NCBI RefSeq assembly: GCF_001281385.1
Contig: NZ_CP006911.1
Coordinates: forward strand, 1,054,001-1,118,000
Reading direction: 5' to 3'
DNA: 64,000 nucleotides
Source of the DNA: Candidatus Pseudothioglobus singularis PS1
GTDB taxonomy: Bacteria; Pseudomonadota; Gammaproteobacteria; PS1; Pseudothioglobaceae
The first letter of the stretch is position 1; the number at the start of each line of letters is the position of its first letter. Positions 26,537 to 37,961 of this stretch are shown piece by piece. Both the position numbers and the translations under genes were made by a program. The notes under the pieces are model-generated. The model saw only the letters and a program-made list of their open reading frames with translations, was not told where the DNA came from and searched no databases.

Positions 26537-26561
26537 TCATCAATCAGTCGTGCACTCCCAG

Positions 26562-26602
26562 ATCAAATGAAGTTTTGACTTTGCTCTAAGTTGACTTATA
26601 AT
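26562..26602 (+). promoter_or_regulatory. Repeated promoter element, copy A (ligase promoter)
   Basis: The block ATCAAATGAAGTTTTGACTT opens the element. Its TTGACT (26575-26580) serves as -35 and TATAAT (26597-26602) as -10, 16 bases apart. The same block and spacing recur at 33697 and 34346, and a longer variant at 31187. The ATCAAANGAA part lies just upstream of the -35 and is the likely binding site of a common activator. Expected transcription start is about 26609, about 40 bases before the ligase ATG. Confidence 0.7.
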
Positions 26603-29848: not shown

Positions 29849-29904
29849 AAAACTAACACTCAATATTCATTAAGCATTAGTTTATATTGAAATATAATTT
29901 GATT

Positions 29905-30288
29905 ATGAAAATTGATATAAAAAATGAAATAGAAACGCACCGCTATGAGTCCGGACAGAAGCTATCTGAAGGCCTTTGGATGAATGGCAAGAAGGAAGGC
30001 GTCTGGACGGAGTGGCATGAGAACGGTCAGATTAAAAGCCAGGAGTCATACAAAGAGAATATATGGCACGGAAAACATAATTACTGGTACGAGAATGGTC
30101 AGAAGATGAAAGAGAGTATTGATATAAATGGCCTATATGAGGGCCTATGGGTTACTTGGCATGAAAATGGTCAGAAATGGGAAGAAGGCAACTATAGAAA
30201 AGAGAAGAAAGAAGGCCTCTGGACGAAGTGGGATGAAAATGGTCAGATTATTGCTCAAGAAAACTTCAAGGATGGAAAGCTAGTCTAG
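29905..30288 (+). CDS. MORN-repeat protein, YwqK antitoxin-like (first copy)
   Basis: A 127-residue protein built of about five MORN-2-type repeats with the unit G-x-W-x-x-W-H/Y-E-N-G-Q, seen as WTEWHENGQ, NYWYENGQK, WVTWHENGQK and WTKWDENGQ. Proteins with this repeat are named YwqK-family antitoxins after the Bacillus YwqJ-YwqK pair, but many have no proven toxin partner. It is divergent from the GMC gene. I start at the ATG at 29905; an in-frame TTG at 29887 is less likely. The tiny membrane ORF at 30298 begins 9 bases after its stop, so the four ORFs to 30970 may be one transcript. Confidence 0.75.
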   Translation: MKIDIKNEIETHRYESGQKLSEGLWMNGKKEGVWTEWHENGQIKSQESYKENIWHGKHNYWYENGQKMKESIDINGLYEGLWVTWHENGQKWEEGNYRKEKKEGLWTKWDENGQIIAQENFKDGKLV

Positions 30289-30297
30289 ACTTACAAA

Positions 30298-30381
30298 ATG
30301 AAGATCAATAAAAAATTTGTCATTTGGATACTCTTTAATATCTTAGCAAGTGTGATCTTTCTAGCCTTTGTGCATAACTAA
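30298..30381 (+). CDS. 27-residue single-helix membrane peptide
   Basis: A short ORF starting MKINKKF, followed by one hydrophobic helix (VIWILFNILASVIFLAFV) and ending HN. A positively charged N-terminus plus one helix is the shape of small inner-membrane peptides and of type I toxin peptides. Its TAA stop shares its last base with the ATG of the next ORF, which argues for coupled translation and against a chance frame. No ribosome site is seen. Function unknown. Confidence 0.5.
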   Translation: MKINKKFVIWILFNILASVIFLAFVHN

Positions 30382-30572
30382 TGGTCTGGCTTTTATCAAT
30401 AGTGGACTCTATTGTCACAACTGTTTTTAGTTTCTTTCTTTGGATAGTAATGCTCTGGACAATCACAATGTCATCTATGTTTGGAACTGAAAATGGACAG
30501 CAGCTTTATTGCGACAATGCTGATGCTGGAGTCGAGCTCTGTCAAAAGAAAGAATGGAGTATAGTAACCTGA
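30381..30572 (+). CDS. 63-residue small membrane protein
   Basis: The first 30 residues are strongly hydrophobic (MVWLLSIVDSIVTTVFSFFL then WIVMLWTITM). A polar tail follows with two cysteines in YCDNADAGVELCQKK. The start codon overlaps the stop of the 27-residue ORF and the stop overlaps the ATG of the following MORN gene (TGATG), so it is the middle of a three-gene translationally coupled chain. The tail cysteines could form a disulfide if it faces the periplasm. I do not recognise the family. Confidence 0.6.
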   Translation: MVWLLSIVDSIVTTVFSFFLWIVMLWTITMSSMFGTENGQQLYCDNADAGVELCQKKEWSIVT

Positions 30573-30970
30573 TGAAAGACGTAGAACACACACAGAAGCT
30601 CTTCAATGACATGAAGCAGGTGACAACCTATAGAGACGGCAAAAAGCATGGTAAGGAAACGTATTGGTATCCGATAGGGCAGAAAGCCTCAGAATGCTTC
30701 TATATAGATAACAAACTTGAAGGTGAACTGACTGCTTGGACTGAGTTTGGGCTCGTGATTCAACAGGACAATTACAAGAGTGGTCTACTTCATGGGCTAT
30801 CTAGAGTTTGGAATGAGGAGGGACAACTTGAATCAGAAATTATGTTCAAGCATGGAAAGCCTTCAGGAAAATTTACCTTCTATGAGAATGGTGTTAAAGT
30901 CAAAGAAGGAGTTGCAGATTACAGTAACGATGACTCACCCTACAACTTTGATAACGAAACTGTTAATTAA
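30572..30970 (+). CDS. MORN-repeat protein, YwqK antitoxin-like (second copy)
   Basis: A 132-residue protein with four or five diverged MORN-2 repeats: YWYPIGQKASECFY, LTAWTEFGLVIQQDNY, SRVWNEEGQLESE and FTFYENGVKVKEG. It is less regular than the copy at 29905. I start at the ATG at 30572, which overlaps the stop of the 63-residue membrane gene; an earlier in-frame ATG at 30554 is inside that gene. Coupling to a membrane gene suggests the two products act together. Function is unproven; the antitoxin label is by family name only. Confidence 0.7.
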   Translation: MKDVEHTQKLFNDMKQVTTYRDGKKHGKETYWYPIGQKASECFYIDNKLEGELTAWTEFGLVIQQDNYKSGLLHGLSRVWNEEGQLESEIMFKHGKPSGKFTFYENGVKVKEGVADYSNDDSPYNFDNETVN

Positions 30971-31101: not shown

Positions 31102-31186
31102 TCCCTCGCATATTTATTTTGACTTTGAAGGTACAGGGGGAGCCCCTCTCGACATCATAGATAGATATATACACCTTCCCTCACAC

Positions 31187-31232
31187 ATCAAACGAAGTTT
31201 GGACTTTGACTAGGTTTTGATTAACTTATAAT
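31187..31232 (+). promoter_or_regulatory. Repeated promoter element, copy B (DMGDH-like gene promoter)
   Basis: Carries ATCAAACGAAGTTTGGACTT as in the other copies, then TATAAT at 31227-31232. The distance from the ACTTT block to the -10 is 5 bases longer than in copies A, C and D, so a different -35 (TTGACT at 31206-31211, spacing 15) may be used. Only 6 bases separate the -10 from the ATG of the flavoprotein gene, which points to a leaderless or nearly leaderless mRNA. Confidence 0.65.
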
Positions 31233-31238
31233 ATTAAA

Positions 31239-33674
31239 ATGAAAAAAAATGCACGTGTTGTAGTTATAGGTGGAGGCATTGCCGGGTGTTCTACCTTGTA
31301 TCATCTAACTCAAGAAGGCTGGTCCGATGTTGTTCTTTTAGAGCGCAATGATCTTACGAGCGGAACAACATGGCACTCAGCGGCTCAGGTAACTAATTTT
31401 GGTATGAACCAAACAATGGTTGGTCTAAAGACTCATTCAATAAACCTATACAAAGAATTAGCTAATGACCCTGATCACCCAATCAACTATAACCATTCAG
31501 ATGGTGGAATACGCCTAGCAAATACTGAAGAACAAATGCAGGGTTATCGACACTTTGCCTCGATGGCTAAAGGTATGGGTGTTGATTTTGAGGTAATAGA
31601 TGCTAAAGAGTGCCAACGACGCCATCCATTAATATCAACTAAAAATTTAATTGGTGGTCTCTGGGACCCTCATGATGGAGACATTGACCCATATCAATTG
31701 TGTCATTCCTTGGTTCGAAAAGCGCGTGAAGCTGGTGCGAAAGTTTATACAGATACGCCTGTAACTGCTCTCGAGCAATATAAAGATAACACCTGGAAGG
31801 TATCCACTGAACATGGTGATATTGACTGTGAGATTATTGTTAATGCTTGTGGCTACAGGGTTAATGAAGTTGGAGCAATGATGGGTGTTCACCACCCTGT
31901 AGCGTCAATGGAGCATCAATATTTTTTAACTGAAGATATTCCTGAAATTGCACAGGCAGGTCACCGTATGCCTCTACTTCGCTGTCCAATATCTGACTAT
32001 TATTGCCGACAAGATAAGGGTGGGCTTTTGATTGGTTTTTATGAGCAAAATTGTAAGACATGGGGGATGGACGGGATTGATCCAAACTTTGTTAACGCGC
32101 TCTGCCCTGATGATTTAGAGAGAGTAGCTGATGTTTTGGATGGAGCATTTGAGCGGATGCCAGCACTCATGAATGCTGGAATTCGGAGTATTGTTAATGG
32201 CCCAATTACATACACAATTGATGGGGCGCCACTAGTTGGAAAAATCCCAGGCAAGGAAAACGCTTTTTGTATTATCGGTTTACGCGCAGGATTAGGTGAG
32301 GGTGGAGGACATGGTTGGCTTCTTGCTCAACAGATTGTTAATGGCGAGGCATGTTATGATACTTGGTGTCTTGACCCTCGAAGATTTACCGCACATGCTA
32401 ATGTTGAGATGACCTCTTTAAAAGCTATTGAGGACTATCAAAACGAGTTTCGATTTCATTTTCCCCATGAACATCGCCCAGCTGCTCGTAAAGCAAAAAC
32501 CACTTCACTTACTCCTATCATGGCTGCAGAAAATGCGGCATTTACAGTTATTAACGGGTGGGAGCGTGTTGAATATATTAAGCCTTCTGAGGACTTCTAT
32601 CCTTCGCTTTCATTTCATTTTGATGAAACATTTGACATAGTTGCTAAAGAAATTATAAATATTCGTGATAACGTTGGTCTTTGTGAGGTTAATGGCTTTA
32701 ATCGCTTTGAAATAACTGGCTTAGACGCTGAGAATTTTATAGATCGTATGTTTTGTGGGAACATCACACATAAACCTGGTCGCGTAGGATTAGGTTATCT
32801 TCTTAATGATTTTGGAATGGTAAAAAGTGAAGCGACTATTGCTAATATCCCAGCCTCAGATAGGGGTTCTACTAGAATTTGGTATGGCTCAGCTGCGGCA
32901 TCAGAGTTCCATGATATGGATTGGCTAACACAACACATTAATGCTGATGAAGATGTTCACATTAAAAGCCTAACGAATGATCAAACTATTCTCATTATTG
33001 CTGGTCCAAAAGCTCGAAAAGTCTTGTCAGCATGTAGTCGTGACGACTGGAGTAAAGAGGTATTTCCATGGCTGAGCGTAAGAGAGTGCTTTATTGGATT
33101 CACAGCTGCTACTGTAATGTCAGTCAGTTTTTCAGGAGAACTTGCCTATGAAGTTCATGTTCCAAACTCTTCACTCTATGCAGCCTACCTTACCCTCTCA
33201 GAAGCTGGTAAAGAATTTGGAATGAAGCTCTTCGGATCCAGGGCTGTCGAATCCATGAGAATGGAGAAAGGATTTTTGTCATGGAAGTCTGATTTATTAA
33301 CTGAATTTGATCCTTTTGAAACTGGTCTTGATCGTTTTGTAAATCTAAAAAAAGATAACTTTATTGGTAAAACTGCGTTACAAAAACGCGTTAAAGATGG
33401 CCCAAAACAGAGGCTTGTTTGCCTTGATGTTGATTGTAAACATGCGCCTTCTCATAGTGGAGCCTCTTTAATTGAAAATGGTAAAGTTGTAGGGACAATA
33501 ACTTCTGGTGAATGGGGACATAGAGTGAATCAAAACTTAGCATATGCATTCGTAAATCCAGACAAATCTAAAGAAGGAACTAAGTTGATGATGGATTTAC
33601 TGGGAGAAATGATTTCAGTACAAGTGATTCCATTTGGAGCCTATGATAGAAGCTATAGTAGATTATTAGCATAA
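31239..33674 (+). CDS. FAD- and folate-dependent dimethylglycine/sarcosine dehydrogenase-like protein (DAO-GcvT fusion)
   Basis: Expected to oxidise an N-methyl group and pass the C1 unit to tetrahydrofolate. The 811 residues match dimethylglycine dehydrogenase in size and order. The FAD Rossmann motif VVVIGGGIAGCSTLYHL starts at residue 7, then SGTTWHSAAQ with the histidine (His46) used for covalent flavin attachment in this family. The DAO and FAO-M regions extend to about 430, followed by a GcvT aminomethyltransferase domain (about 450-710) with SGELAYEVHVP and a GcvT C-terminal barrel. Dimethylglycine is the favoured substrate because a sarcosine-oxidase complex is encoded nearby. No ribosome site precedes the ATG. 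Confidence 0.88.
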   Translation: MKKNARVVVIGGGIAGCSTLYHLTQEGWSDVVLLERNDLTSGTTWHSAAQVTNFGMNQTMVGLKTHSINLYKELANDPDHPINYNHSDGGIRLANTEEQMQGYRHFASMAKGMGVDFEVIDAKECQRRHPLISTKNLIGGLWDPHDGDIDPYQLCHSLVRKAREAGAKVYTDTPVTALEQYKDNTWKVSTEHGDIDCEIIVNACGYRVNEVGAMMGVHHPVASMEHQYFLTEDIPEIAQAGHRMPLLRCPISDYYCRQDKGGLLIGFYEQNCKTWGMDGIDPNFVNALCPDDLERVADVLDGAFERMPALMNAGIRSIVNGPITYTIDGAPLVGKIPGKENAFCIIGLRAGLGEGGGHGWLLAQQIVNGEACYDTWCLDPRRFTAHANVEMTSLKAIEDYQNEFRFHFPHEHRPAARKAKTTSLTPIMAAENAAFTVINGWERVEYIKPSEDFYPSLSFHFDETFDIVAKEIINIRDNVGLCEVNGFNRFEITGLDAENFIDRMFCGNITHKPGRVGLGYLLNDFGMVKSEATIANIPASDRGSTRIWYGSAAASEFHDMDWLTQHINADEDVHIKSLTNDQTILIIAGPKARKVLSACSRDDWSKEVFPWLSVRECFIGFTAATVMSVSFSGELAYEVHVPNSSLYAAYLTLSEAGKEFGMKLFGSRAVESMRMEKGFLSWKSDLLTEFDPFETGLDRFVNLKKDNFIGKTALQKRVKDGPKQRLVCLDVDCKHAPSHSGASLIENGKVVGTITSGEWGHRVNQNLAYAFVNPDKSKEGTKLMMDLLGEMISVQVIPFGAYDRSYSRLLA

Positions 33675-33696
33675 AGAAGGAGGTCCTCCCTCATAC

Positions 33697-33737
33697 ATCA
33701 AAAGAAATTTAAACTTTAGTTCTAATTGACATATAAT
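33697..33737 (+). promoter_or_regulatory. Repeated promoter element, copy C
   Basis: Contains ATCAAAAGAAATTTAAACTT and TATAAT (33732-33737) with the same block-to--10 spacing as copies A and D. The -35 is weaker here (TAAACT in place of TTGACT), which suggests activator dependence. The predicted start is near 33744, giving a leader of about 90 bases before the 134-residue gene. A short GGAGG/CCTCC palindrome (33678-33688) lies just upstream. Confidence 0.65.
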
Positions 33738-33834: not shown

Positions 33835-34239
33835 ATGTTGGGAGAAAAGATTGGTTCAATTTCTGGACCTGCAACAAATAAAGTGTTGTCAGCTGAAGGT
33901 TCTTTACCTAAGTTCAGCACCTCTACAGAAGGTGTTGGAACACTTGCTGGAGCAGAAGTCCAAAGTATGGCAACTTATAGTTCCAGTATGAGAGCAGATG
34001 GCACACTTTATGGCGAGTGCCCTAATCAAGGTGTAATAATGACACAGGATGGAGTAGCCACATTCAGGGCAACAGGAATGGGTACTTTTACAGCTGATGG
34101 AGGGTCAAACTTTAGAGGGGCGTGTTATTTTCAAGCAACTGCACCATCACTTTCGAGTCTTAATGGTGTTTGTTGTGTTTACCATTTTGATGTTGATGCA
34201 GAAGGAAACGCTACTTGGGACATTTGGGAGTGGAACTAG
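33835..34239 (+). CDS. Unknown small beta-rich protein under the shared promoter element
   Basis: A 134-residue soluble protein without signal peptide or membrane segment. It is rich in glycine, threonine and serine with alternating hydrophobic residues, suggesting a beta-barrel (calycin-like) fold. Recognisable blocks are GVGTLAGAEVQSMATY, RADGTLYGECPNQGV, GTFTADGGSNFRGACYFQ and the acidic end WDIWEWN; there are five cysteines, two adjacent in NGVCCVYHF. An excellent ribosome site (AAAGGAG) precedes the ATG. The shared promoter element links it to the DMGDH-like gene and the ligase. I do not recognise the family well enough to name a function. Confidence 0.8.
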   Translation: MLGEKIGSISGPATNKVLSAEGSLPKFSTSTEGVGTLAGAEVQSMATYSSSMRADGTLYGECPNQGVIMTQDGVATFRATGMGTFTADGGSNFRGACYFQATAPSLSSLNGVCCVYHFDVDAEGNATWDIWEWN

Positions 34240-34330: not shown

Positions 34331-34345
34331 AACCCTCGCTTACAC

Positions 34346-34386
34346 ATCAAAGGAAATTTGGACTTTAGCTCAAGTTGATATACAAT
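34346..34386 (+). promoter_or_regulatory. Repeated promoter element, copy D (orphan)
   Basis: Carries ATCAAAGGAAATTTGGACTT and a -10 TACAAT (34381-34386) with the standard block-to--10 spacing. Seven bases after the -10 comes an ATG, but the frame ends after five codons (MKNLP). The next gene is on the opposite strand. The copy therefore appears to have lost its gene. Confidence 0.55.
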
Positions 34387-34435: not shown

Positions 34436-35005
34436 TTAAAGAACGTTCTCTGCAGACACTTCAATCGCGTGAAGCATAGAGCGGCCAAATGAACGCATTG
34501 TTAAAAGAACATAGGAGTCATCGCCATCCCTAAAGATGATGGTTCCTATATGCTCCATGATTGTCCTAGATACGCTGCCTACAGGAAACGCTTCTACACT
34601 TATATCGACTGGGCAGATTCTCTCGAGCACATCCCTACTTCTCTGACCACTAACCCTAATCATAGCCCAGGTATCGGACTGATCCGTATAGTATGCTGGC
34701 GCAGATAACCGTCTAGATAAGTGAGCTTCTGCGTCATTACCCTCATAAGTAAAGTACGCTAAAACTTGGTTCTTTTGCAGACGCCAGAGCATAATCGAAG
34801 AATCCTTTGAAAGGGTTGATCGCTCCATTTCTGGGAGCTTAAGACCGCAAGACTTATCGATTGAAGACTCAACCTCACTAAAATTTTCTCTTGGAAGTGC
34901 AACCATCACGAGAGACTTGTCAGTCACCTCAGTAATATTGAAGCCATCCATCTCTATCTCGACGCCACCTAGCGGTGACTCTGGCAATAATTCGTAATCA
35001 GACAC
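34436..35005 (-). CDS. soxG: Sarcosine oxidase gamma subunit family protein
   Basis: Small structural subunit of the heterotetrameric oxidase, related to the GcvT fold. I start it at the GTG at 35005 (189 residues). That codon has a perfect AAGGAGG 8 bases upstream and gives the family's usual beginning (VSDYELLPESPLGG), overlapping the soxA stop by 8 bases. The frame opens further back at an ATG at 35053 inside soxA. Later landmarks are LWRLQKNQVLAYF and WAMIRVSGQRSRDVLERICPVD. It is the last gene of the operon. The related N-methylglutamate dehydrogenase subunit MgdD is an alternative name. Confidence 0.85.
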   Translation of the reverse strand: MSDYELLPESPLGGVEIEMDGFNITEVTDKSLVMVALPRENFSEVESSIDKSCGLKLPEMERSTLSKDSSIMLWRLQKNQVLAYFTYEGNDAEAHLSRRLSAPAYYTDQSDTWAMIRVSGQRSRDVLERICPVDISVEAFPVGSVSRTIMEHIGTIIFRDGDDSYVLLTMRSFGRSMLHAIEVSAENVL

Positions 35006-37961
35006 GTAGACGCCCTCCTTCAGGATCATAGAAGTGTGGACTACAAATCTCAACCTCTATATCACTATTTCTAACTAAATCAACGGCACGAACGAACTCA
35101 CCCTTTCTATTCAGTCCATCTTTAATAAATCCGAGGCCAATATAACAGCCCAGCATCGGGGAGTAGATCGACGAAGAAATCCAGCCCTGGTCATTATGCG
35201 TTGTCGCCTCTTCTCTGAGTCCGAGGAGATGCGCACCAGCCATTGAGTGGCCTTTATCAACTAAAGCATTTTTGTTCACCGGCTTGAAACCAACCATCTG
35301 CATACGATCATTCCTGAGTAGCTCTTCTCTTTGACCTAACTTGTAACCGATAAAGTCTTTTTTGCCTGAGACCATACCGCCCATTCCAAGATCATAAGCA
35401 CTCGTCTGACCGTTGAGTTCTGGTCCCGCTGCGTGCCCCTTTTCAATTCTCATAACGCCAAGCGCCTCAGTTCCATAAGGAACGACATCGAACTCTTCAC
35501 CTGCATGCATCATTGCTCTCATGAGAGCATCACCGTAACGCGTTGGAACCGCAATTTCGTAGGCCAGTTCGCCCGAGAAAGAGATCCTAAAAAGTCTTGC
35601 AGGGATGCCGCCACAAACTGTGATTGCGCCTGCCCCCATGAAAGGGAACGCTTCATTTGAAATGTCGTGTTCAGGATCAACAATCTTTTGCAATAGGTTA
35701 CGAGAGTTAGGTCCTGCGACTGCGTACTGAGCGTACTGCTCGGTCACTGAAATCATGTGGACATCGAGATCAGGCCATAGCACCTGGTGACAGAACTGAA
35801 GGTGACGATAAACGCTGACCGCGTTAGCAGTCGTCGTTGTCATCACGAAGTGATCTTCAGCGAGTCTTGCCGTTGTACCATCATCCATCGCCATGCTGTC
35901 TTCTCTAAGCATCAGGCCGTACCGTGTCTTTCCGACCGGCAGCTTCGCAAAAGCGTTGACGTAAACCTTGTTCAAGAATTCAGAGACGTCTGATCCTTTA
36001 ATATCAATTTTTCCAAGTGTTGTGACATCACAGATGCCGACAGAAGCGCGCGTCTTAATGACCTCACGATCAACGGACTGACGCCAGTGCGTCTCACCCG
36101 GCTGAGGGAACCACTGCGAGCGATACCACATCCCAACCTCAACGAACACAGCGCCCTGCTCTTCAGACCACTTGTGGCTCGGCGTGTACCTTGTTGGATA
36201 GAACTCCATCCCTCTTCTTCTTCCAGCAAATGCACCAACTGCAACAGGAGAGTATGGCGGCCTGAAAATGGTTGTTCCAGTCTCCTCCATAGTCTGACCC
36301 ATGTTCTCAGCCATGATGCCGATACCTAAAACGTTAGCGGTTTTGCCTTGGTCCGTTGCCATGCCTAGCGTTGTGTAGCGCTTGACGTGCTCAACCGACT
36401 TAAATCCTTCTTGGTTCGCTAAGCGAACATCTTTCGCGGTGACATCATTCTGGAAGTCAACCCAAGCGCGATTTTTGCCACTTTCAACGCCCCAGTTAGC
36501 GACCACATTGTAGGCAACCGCTGGCGTTGATGCAGCCTTAAGGTCTGCAGATTTGTAGCCTAATTCTAAGGCAACACTAGAACCTAAATCGTGACCCTCT
36601 TTCATTGCATCAGAGAGAACCATGGTTCCTTTTGCTCTACCCGCAACGCTCATCCCAGGAGGCGTCGCCTCATCTGGAATAAAAGAGGCAATCTCTTCAT
36701 TCCATTTCGGAATCCCTCTGTGGTGACAGGTTAAATGTAGGTTGGGATTCCAGCCACCCGAAACAGCTAGTGAGTCGGTGTCAAGAGTCTTGCCATTTGA
36801 AAGCGTAATGGACTTCAGTGCCCTTCTGCCTTTAGTATCGACAACATCCGTACCCATAAAGATTTCAGCGCCTTGAATCGGCATCACTGGGCTGATAGAG
36901 CGCGAATCAATGACCGCAACAATATTAACACCCTTAGACCTTAAATCTTTAGCTGTTTGCCAGCCGTCATCATTGTTTGTGTAGACCGTGACTTTATTCC
37001 CCGTTGCAACCGCAAATCGATTCATATAAGCCCTCACCGCACCTGCAAGCATAATGCCTGGGCGATCATTGTTTCCAAAGGCGATTGAGCGCTCAATGGC
37101 GCCCGCACATAGAATTGATTTTTTCGCATAAATTCGCCAGTTGACCTGTCTCGGTTTATTGCTATCCGCTCTAGACTCTGACGATCTGTTTTCTAGTGCA
37201 CCGTATATTCCGTGGTCGTAGACACCAAAGATGGTCGTATCTGACATCAAGGTGACGTTCTCCATCGCGCTGAGTTTTTCAACGGCGCTTTTTGCCCACT
37301 CGCTACCTTTGATATTATCAATCTTAGCTGTTTCAGTATTTAAGCGGCCTCCCATCAGGAAGTCCTCATCAGCCAGTATTACTTTAGCGCCTGAGCTTGC
37401 AGCTGTCAGAGCAGCAGACAGGCCAGTTGCACCGGCTCCAATAATTAATATATCGCAGTAACGAAACCCTTTGTCATAGGTGTCAGGATCTGGCTCTTTA
37501 GAAAGCGTTCCGAGACCGGCTGAATTACGAATAGCTGGCTCATAGATCTTTTCCCAAAAAGCCTTAGGCCACATAAATGTTTTGTAGTAGAAGCCAGCTC
37601 CAAGCAGCGGCGATAAAAAGTCGGTGATCGCCATTAAATCGAAACCGAGAGGTCCTCTATGATTTTGGCTATTCGCCTCTAAACCGTTATAAAGCTGAGT
37701 CACAGTTGCGCGCGTGTTGGGCTCCTTGTGAGCACCGCTTCCGATCTCCATGATAGCATTCGGCTCTTCAGAGCCAACCGTCACGATTCCGCGTGGACGG
37801 TGATACTTAAAGGACCTTCCAACCAAGTGCTTGTTATTAGCAAGCAGTGCGGATGCTAGAGTGTCTCCCTCGTAGCCTCTTAAGATTTGACCGTTAAAGG
37901 TAAAGGTTAGCGTTTTCTTTTGGTCTATGAGACCGCCGTCTTGTCTATGTGTTTGACTCAT
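34998..37961 (-). CDS. soxA: Sarcosine oxidase alpha subunit family protein
   Basis: Large subunit that binds NAD and carries the folate-dependent GcvT half, receiving the imino intermediate made by the beta subunit. The 987 residues run as follows: an N-terminal ferredoxin-like domain (RQDGGLIDQKKTLTFTFNG then GDTLASALLANN), a Rossmann domain with IGAGATGLSAALTAASSGAK near 173-192, a second oxidoreductase part with LCAGAIERSIAFGNNDRPG, and a GcvT domain from about residue 600 ending DPEGGRLRV. Order B-D-A-G with 4- and 8-base overlaps is canonical. MgdC of N-methylglutamate dehydrogenase has the same architecture, so the substrate is not certain. Confidence 0.9.
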   Translation of the reverse strand: MSQTHRQDGGLIDQKKTLTFTFNGQILRGYEGDTLASALLANNKHLVGRSFKYHRPRGIVTVGSEEPNAIMEIGSGAHKEPNTRATVTQLYNGLEANSQNHRGPLGFDLMAITDFLSPLLGAGFYYKTFMWPKAFWEKIYEPAIRNSAGLGTLSKEPDPDTYDKGFRYCDILIIGAGATGLSAALTAASSGAKVILADEDFLMGGRLNTETAKIDNIKGSEWAKSAVEKLSAMENVTLMSDTTIFGVYDHGIYGALENRSSESRADSNKPRQVNWRIYAKKSILCAGAIERSIAFGNNDRPGIMLAGAVRAYMNRFAVATGNKVTVYTNNDDGWQTAKDLRSKGVNIVAVIDSRSISPVMPIQGAEIFMGTDVVDTKGRRALKSITLSNGKTLDTDSLAVSGGWNPNLHLTCHHRGIPKWNEEIASFIPDEATPPGMSVAGRAKGTMVLSDAMKEGHDLGSSVALELGYKSADLKAASTPAVAYNVVANWGVESGKNRAWVDFQNDVTAKDVRLANQEGFKSVEHVKRYTTLGMATDQGKTANVLGIGIMAENMGQTMEETGTTIFRPPYSPVAVGAFAGRRRGMEFYPTRYTPSHKWSEEQGAVFVEVGMWYRSQWFPQPGETHWRQSVDREVIKTRASVGICDVTTLGKIDIKGSDVSEFLNKVYVNAFAKLPVGKTRYGLMLREDSMAMDDGTTARLAEDHFVMTTTTANAVSVYRHLQFCHQVLWPDLDVHMISVTEQYAQYAVAGPNSRNLLQKIVDPEHDISNEAFPFMGAGAITVCGGIPARLFRISFSGELAYEIAVPTRYGDALMRAMMHAGEEFDVVPYGTEALGVMRIEKGHAAGPELNGQTSAYDLGMGGMVSGKKDFIGYKLGQREELLRNDRMQMVGFKPVNKNALVDKGHSMAGAHLLGLREEATTHNDQGWISSSIYSPMLGCYIGLGFIKDGLNRKGEFVRAVDLVRNSDIEVEICSPHFYDPEGGRLRV

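Follow-up and report, generated by a model that had tools for sequence, protein, structure and literature searches.

Two very short open reading frames lie between two MORN-repeat genes in the genome of Candidatus Pseudothioglobus singularis PS1, and one-base overlaps of stop and start codons tie them to each other and to the second of these genes. Are they genes at all? And if so, do the four form one functional module, or did they come together from different sources? The window discussed here is the whole stretch of DNA analysed, 64,000 nucleotides long (positions 1,054,001 to 1,118,000 of contig NZ_CP006911.1). Coordinates refer to the window unless kilobases of a genome are given; relatives carry genome numbers, PS1 itself being G000.

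All four reading frames are on the plus strand. The unit begins with MORN1 (29905–30288), which encodes a MORN_2 protein of 127 residues and matches Pfam PF07661 with 67.6 bits (gathering cut-off 29.6). A gap of 9 nt separates its stop from the ATG of ORF A (30298–30381), the gene of a predicted single-span membrane microprotein of 27 residues. The ORF A stop is TAA (30379–30381), and its last A is the first base of the ORF B start (ATG, 30381–30383), which makes the overlap TAATG at 30379–30383. ORF B (30381–30572) codes for 63 residues, with one predicted helix (residues 2–37) and a two-cysteine tail. Its end repeats the arrangement: the last A of TGA (30570–30572) opens the ATG of MORN3 (30572–30574), the overlap being TGATG at 30570–30574. 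MORN3 (30572–30970) encodes another MORN_2 protein, of 132 residues. An in-frame ATG at 30554 would extend it to 138 residues; we place the start at 30572, because a homolog in G028, 73% identical, begins at that methionine. The PF07661 match of MORN3, 37.9 bits (cut-off 29.6), was scored on the 138-residue reading from 30554. An earlier note on this DNA had described the one-base overlaps at 30381 and 30572, two hydrophobic products of 27 and 63 residues, a MORN-repeat protein as the third product and a second MORN gene directly upstream. The coordinates and the Pfam matches bear this out, as do the best 19-residue Kyte-Doolittle means of 2.72 for ORF A and 2.15 for ORF B; the former value is reached by 2 of the 273 window ORFs of 25–35 residues, ORF A included.

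The double overlap as such is weak evidence: when the window was simulated 100 times with a second-order Markov model, 16 of the copies contained a chain of two one-base overlaps among ORFs of at least 25 residues. Conservation is the stronger argument against chance. Intact homologs of ORF A were found in 7 of the other 28 genomes when 29 genomes of the genus were searched with the 27-residue query (45–78% identity, E-values from 8.9e-10 to 0.04). A profile run against 83 genomes of the family recovered eight intact copies and a ninth with an internal stop (G023), all from the same genus; some match at E ≤ 1 is present in 46 of the 83, and everything from the next match (E 0.0026) upwards was dropped as chance. 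Against 369 genomes of the class the profile found, apart from the PS1 copy, four marginal matches only, each within a long frame; these account for four of the five genomes listed and were rejected as chance (E 0.007–0.01, frames of 286–1082 residues). A match in G026 from the search of the genus (E 0.59, inside a frame of 924 residues) was rejected likewise. The interrupted copy (G023:C37:14252-14341) reflects either loss of the microprotein or an assembly error.

The family libraries searched lack these proteins: at E ≤ 0.1, neither ORF A nor ORF B is matched by any entry of Pfam, NCBIfam, PADLOC and PHROGs, and the eight ORF A copies yielded nothing in NCBIfam at E ≤ 1. DUF5316 of Pfam, hit by one ORF A family member at E 0.18, and the best PDB match of the ORF A profile, E 0.24 over 7 positions, were taken as chance.

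How ORF A has changed is more telling. The alignment of the eight copies, one of which starts with GTG (G006), has 11 invariant columns: M1, K2, N4, W10, L12, F13, N14, S18, F21, L22 and A23. Those inside the helix form a pattern, W10, L12-F13-N14, S18 and F21-L22-A23, that is kept in all eight. At the nucleotide level ORF A is 75–79% identical to its counterparts in G025, G003 and G006, as against 25–29% for the ungapped 80-nt flanks. The differences fall on the three codon positions as 4/1/13, 4/1/12 and 5/1/14, respectively, an excess at third positions with p = 0.0009, 0.002 and 0.0009. The corresponding pN/pS values of 0.09/0.77, 0.10/0.68 and 0.12/0.76 give rough ratios, because synonymous change is near saturation, and in several comparisons it is near or past it. 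In a second subtype of ORF A (G028, G002, G024, G009) the constraint is weaker: dN/dS is 0.41–0.44 in three of six pairs, the remaining three being saturated at synonymous sites. Judged by these comparisons, ORF A is a real gene under purifying selection.

Its company varies. Here and below, the gene names in relatives (lipocalin-like, sarcosine oxidase-like, integrase-like, Sel1-like, ubiG-like) were read from translations. ORF A lies 142 nt after the stop of a lipocalin-like gene in G025 and G003 and overlaps such a gene by 4 nt in G006; in all three it faces a convergent sarcosine oxidase gamma-like gene. A 30-residue form in G002, G024, G009 and G028 overlaps an ORF of 53–54 residues, by 17 nt in the first three and by 23 nt in G028 when counted from ATG, and by 8 and 14 nt when counted from an internal GTG or TTG. 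At six of the eight intact loci ORF A stands 9 nt behind, or overlaps, an upstream ORF; the coupling is not constant, because of the 142-nt gap in G025 and G003. Near full-length MORN1 orthologs, 58–66% identical, occur in G003, G025 and G028 (matches below 55% identity were excluded as orthologs), and the distance to ORF A on the shared contig is about 6.5 kb, 2.1 kb and, on opposite strands, 13 nt, respectively. MORN1 and ORF A are thus near each other in all four genomes with a near full-length MORN1, PS1 included. G013 shows roughly 83 nt from the beginning of a MORN1 ortholog at a contig edge, next to GMC; this genome, which is 74% complete, has no ORF A match. Three genomes, G003, G025 and PS1, have MORN1, ORF A and sarcosine oxidase-like genes in one neighbourhood. 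In PS1, ORF A follows MORN1 and is separated from the sarcosine oxidase-like pair (34436–37961) by the segment ORF B-MORN3-DAO. Of the four genes, MORN1 and ORF A are the one pair with a tendency to be close.

ORF B is rarer. Full-length homologs are found in G025 (54%) and G028 (43%), and G024 holds a partial copy; the other 79 of 83 family genomes show no credible match. In the first homolog search all matches beyond G000, G025, G028 and G024 were dropped as chance. The search of the family gave matches at E 0.0086 or worse in another 12 genomes, and one more of this kind in G025, which were discarded as well. A pattern scan of the genome contigs confirmed 1 of 57 matching stretches. Compared with the G025 copy, dN/dS is 0.26 in frame and 1.8 and 1.7 in two shifted frames, and the differences by codon position are 18/13/33, a third-position excess with p = 0.002. 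The substitution pattern marks ORF B, too, as a real gene under purifying selection, and its history is separate from that of ORF A. Each of the three full-length copies lies behind a different gene, with the ORF B start −1, 0 and 0 nt, respectively, from the stop of that gene; the partial copy in G024 does not abut any upstream stop. AlphaFold2, run on three sequences, predicts one helix at residues 2–37 and a low-confidence tail for ORF B (mean pLDDT 70.8).

In G028 and G025, ORF B lies about 9.4 kb and about 15 kb, respectively, from an integrase-like gene, among Sel1-like genes and small membrane ORFs. PS1 has a similar island at 874–890 kb, which lacks ORF B. The islands of PS1 (874.0–893.9 kb), G028 and G025 all combine integrase-like, Sel1-like and MORN genes with many small membrane ORFs, and several of their small proteins end in a two-cysteine tail.

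The MORN genes belong to a spread-out repeat family, as six MORN_2 matches at E ≤ 0.001 in four frames of the PS1 genome indicate. MORN3 has matches at E ≤ 0.01 in 27 of 58 genomes including PS1, which is no surprise in such a family. The closest other one, at 73% identity in G028, stands without an adjacent ORF A or ORF B, and MORN homologs of about 50% identity in other relatives have a ubiG-like or nucleoside phosphorylase-like gene next to them. G028 also has large MORN_2 arrays at C1:584592-587054, with open frames of 596 and 307 residues.

The unit as a whole is flanked by a GMC oxidoreductase gene and a DAO/GcvT-type oxidoreductase gene. No MORN/small-ORF block appears in the ORF lists at the closest GMC loci of 9 relatives and the closest DAO loci of 10, with flanks of at most 1.5 kb, some of them cut by contig ends, in a sample of 40 genomes that leaves out G025 to G036; a tenth GMC match (83%, G004) is partial, yields no locus and falls outside this comparison. 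In fragmentary metagenome-assembled genomes, such absence is weak evidence. The order MORN1-ORF A-ORF B-MORN3 was seen in the PS1 genome only, among the relatives compared, so that conservation of the ORF order, which the earlier note had proposed to look for, was not found. The unit is not a conserved module, since its genes have separate histories. A viral origin was considered and rejected: scans of viral contigs matched 8 stretches for ORF B, 2 for MORN3 and 100 for the ORF A alignment, and no relative was confirmed among them.

Two further features of the neighbourhood deserve mention. An ORF of 134 residues without a Pfam match lies at 33835–34239 (+), between the DAO/GcvT and the sarcosine oxidase-like genes. 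A dispersed 22-bp element, CATCAAACGAARTTTGGACTTT, occurs on the plus strand at 26561–26582, 31186–31207, 33696–33717 and 34345–34366, i.e., four window copies at up to 3 mismatches against 0.00 expected; the whole genome has 10 copies and one of the reversed pattern. Relatives carry the element as well, ahead of some of their MORN and secreted-type ORFs. The 3' part is usable as a −35 box, and the element may be a mobile promoter element or the site of a regulator.

How might the four frames be expressed? A TATAAT at 29893–29898 (+), 6 nt before the MORN1 ATG, is likely the −10 box of a leaderless-type promoter. It precedes the MORN1 orthologs of G003 and G025 at the same distance, i.e., three of four orthologs with PS1 included; the G028 ortholog lacks it, which counts against the operon promoter reading. 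Boxes of this type 4–8 nt before the first ATG were seen in 5 of 53 window ORFs of at least 100 residues, as compared to 2.6% of random positions. The DAO/GcvT gene at 31239 likewise has a TATAAT 6 nt upstream; this gene is therefore probably read from a start of its own, which would make MORN3 the last gene of the unit. As judged by eye, neither ORF A nor ORF B is preceded by a Shine-Dalgarno sequence. As to coupling, 13 of 14 overlapping gene pairs tested were reported to be strictly coupled (PMC6728339), and translational coupling is described as all but disappearing once the gap reaches about 20 nt (PMC10666635).

Any explanation has to accommodate the four ORFs, their overlaps, selection on both small ones and the separate histories of the pieces. 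We are slightly inclined to believe in a composite accessory operon, transcribed as one mRNA from the MORN1 promoter, whose membrane microproteins are made by termination and reinitiation. MORN1, ORF A, ORF B and MORN3 would have been assembled in the PS1 lineage between the GMC and DAO/GcvT-type oxidoreductase genes. The single mRNA would begin at MORN1, driven by the TATAAT 6 nt before its ATG, and ribosomes that end MORN1 (9 nt gap), ORF A (−1) and ORF B (−1) would reinitiate on the next frame; we infer reinitiation because no Shine-Dalgarno sequence was seen before the small ORFs. ORF A would be a single-span microprotein of the inner membrane, most likely an accessory helix that packs on a larger membrane protein, a role suggested by the conserved pattern inside the helix and by the precedent of CydX and AcrZ. 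ORF B, unrelated to it, would be another single-span protein, perhaps with a disulfide in its tail. The two MORN genes would encode soluble MORN_2 scaffolds, which the small proteins perhaps tether to the membrane; this is the weakest step of the scheme. MORN repeats are described as protein-protein interaction modules in a report that found no membrane binding by a trypanosome MORN protein (PMC7725318); a scaffold role is thereby permitted, not demonstrated.

The earlier note had compared the locus to a toxin-antitoxin or membrane-sensing module, in which the small hydrophobic peptides are coupled to an antitoxin-family protein. We take MORN_2 to be the family of YwqK, a protein known to many as an "antitoxin", and it is from this name that the reading of the MORN genes as an antitoxin family derives. 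The idea that small membrane toxins are neutralised by a YwqK-like MORN protein could draw on this kinship, on the designation of ywqJ-ywqK as a putative toxin-antitoxin pair (PMC8321402) and on the closeness of MORN1 and ORF A in four of four genomes. We give it hardly any chance. The YwqJ deaminase domain PF14431 has no match in the PS1 genome (the control search did find it in Bacillus subtilis), PADLOC models match none of the four proteins, and the neighbouring genes with a Pfam match encode oxidoreductases, an AMP-binding enzyme and a methyltransferase. As to an LXG domain, none was reported among the nine window proteins searched against Pfam. Partners of a toxin-antitoxin system should remain paired across relatives; ORF A, ORF B and MORN3 sit at separate loci. 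Even MORN1 and ORF A are 2–6.5 kb apart in two genomes and on opposite strands in one, and G013 (74% complete) has the MORN1 start yet no ORF A match. MORN3 matches are present in 26 of 57 other genomes, of which three also hold an ORF B copy (G025, G028 and, partial, G024), and these copies are at least 7 kb from a MORN match or on another contig. The passage of PMC3482391 that deals with YwqJ deaminases lists them with Imm6 and does not mention YwqK. Of the two observations that the earlier note had considered fatal to its own proposal, MORN genes kept by relatives without the small ORFs and small ORFs that lack translation or purifying selection, the former is indeed what we see; as to the latter, both ORFs are under selection.

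A solitary type I-like hydrophobic toxin that acts on the cell's own membrane and is silenced by an RNA or by coupling would agree with the size and hydrophobicity of ORF A, with its confinement to one genus (83 family and 369 class genomes searched) and with the interrupted copy in G023. It is nevertheless improbable: ORF A lies behind or overlaps ordinary genes at most loci and would be made constantly, and the conservation inside its helix is residue-specific. A consensus promoter on the minus strand of 30298–30570 is absent, which is weak evidence against a silencing RNA; Rfam at its gathering score recognises one tRNA in the whole window and nothing else. Very improbable, too, is a role as leader peptide, with translation of ORF A regulating ORF B and MORN3 in cis. 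ORF A is short and runs straight into ORF B through the one-base overlap; in G025, G003 and G006, though, it is followed by a convergent gene, which leaves nothing downstream to control, and the amino-acid sequence is conserved, not merely its reading. That both small ORFs are chance frames is scarcely credible in view of the homologs at other loci, the third-position-biased change and the unrelated flanks, although such overlap chains do arise randomly. Unlikely, to a far lesser degree, is that the genes share an mRNA and little else, the overlaps reflecting the tight packing of a streamlined genome, the small ORFs being initiated independently and the proteins having no common task. This would be in line with double overlaps in 16 of 100 simulated windows, with a gene order seen nowhere else and with the 142 nt between ORF A and the upstream gene in two relatives, but less so with the lack, as judged by eye, of a Shine-Dalgarno sequence ahead of ORF A and ORF B, with an ORF B that abuts or overlaps the upstream stop in three of three full-length copies, and with an ORF A that overlaps the upstream ORF, or follows it at 9 nt, at six of eight intact loci.

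Compared with known systems, the composite operon that we favour is a mixture. MORN1 and MORN3 resemble the MORN_2 family (PF07661) in that they score above its cut-off; the difference from MORN_2/YwqK is a PS1 genome without a YwqJ toxin. The LXG/YwqJ-YwqK operons of Bacillus subtilis (PMC8321402) likewise have a YwqK-like (MORN_2) gene beside small genes, whereas PS1 has neither a YwqJ deaminase domain nor a conserved pairing. Like CydX and AcrZ, which are single-helix small membrane proteins, ORF A and ORF B have fewer than 65 residues and one hydrophobic helix, and ORF A shows residue-specific conservation inside it; what sets them apart is that they have no match in the four libraries at E ≤ 0.1. 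Both fit single-helix small membrane proteins under purifying selection, their membrane location being predicted. The one-base stop/start overlaps recall the termination-reinitiation pairs of PMC6728339 and PMC10666635; the PS1 unit, whose coupling is putative, differs by two consecutive junctions with very short ORFs. A literature search revealed nothing that joins Thioglobus with a small membrane protein, and MORN repeat together with YwqK yielded a table entry only; PMC10903887 does not name Thioglobus in its pertinent part on small membrane proteins.

A more general idea is doubtful, if conceivable: ORF A and ORF B may represent a class of portable membrane microgenes without evident initiation signals of their own, which attach to the stop of any upstream gene. 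The spacings of ORF A, 9 nt behind MORN1, a 4-nt overlap in G006 and overlaps of 17–23 nt (from the ATG) in G002, G009, G024 and G028, would be in favour, and so would the stops of three different genes that ORF B abuts or overlaps. Against it stand the 142 nt that separate ORF A from its neighbour in both G025 and G003, as well as the G024 copy of ORF B, which is partial and away from any stop.

What does the locus teach? The operon is a patchwork of genes, and "antitoxin" should not be read from the name YwqK. ORF A is the part worth attention: there is evidence that its 27 codons, in a marine lineage of the SUP05 clade, specify a protein under selection, though it is missing from the family libraries searched. 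If the idea of portable microgenes holds true, small membrane genes that attach to stops would be one way, open to testing, for microproteins to spread through streamlined genomes, as coupled add-ons that annotation misses.
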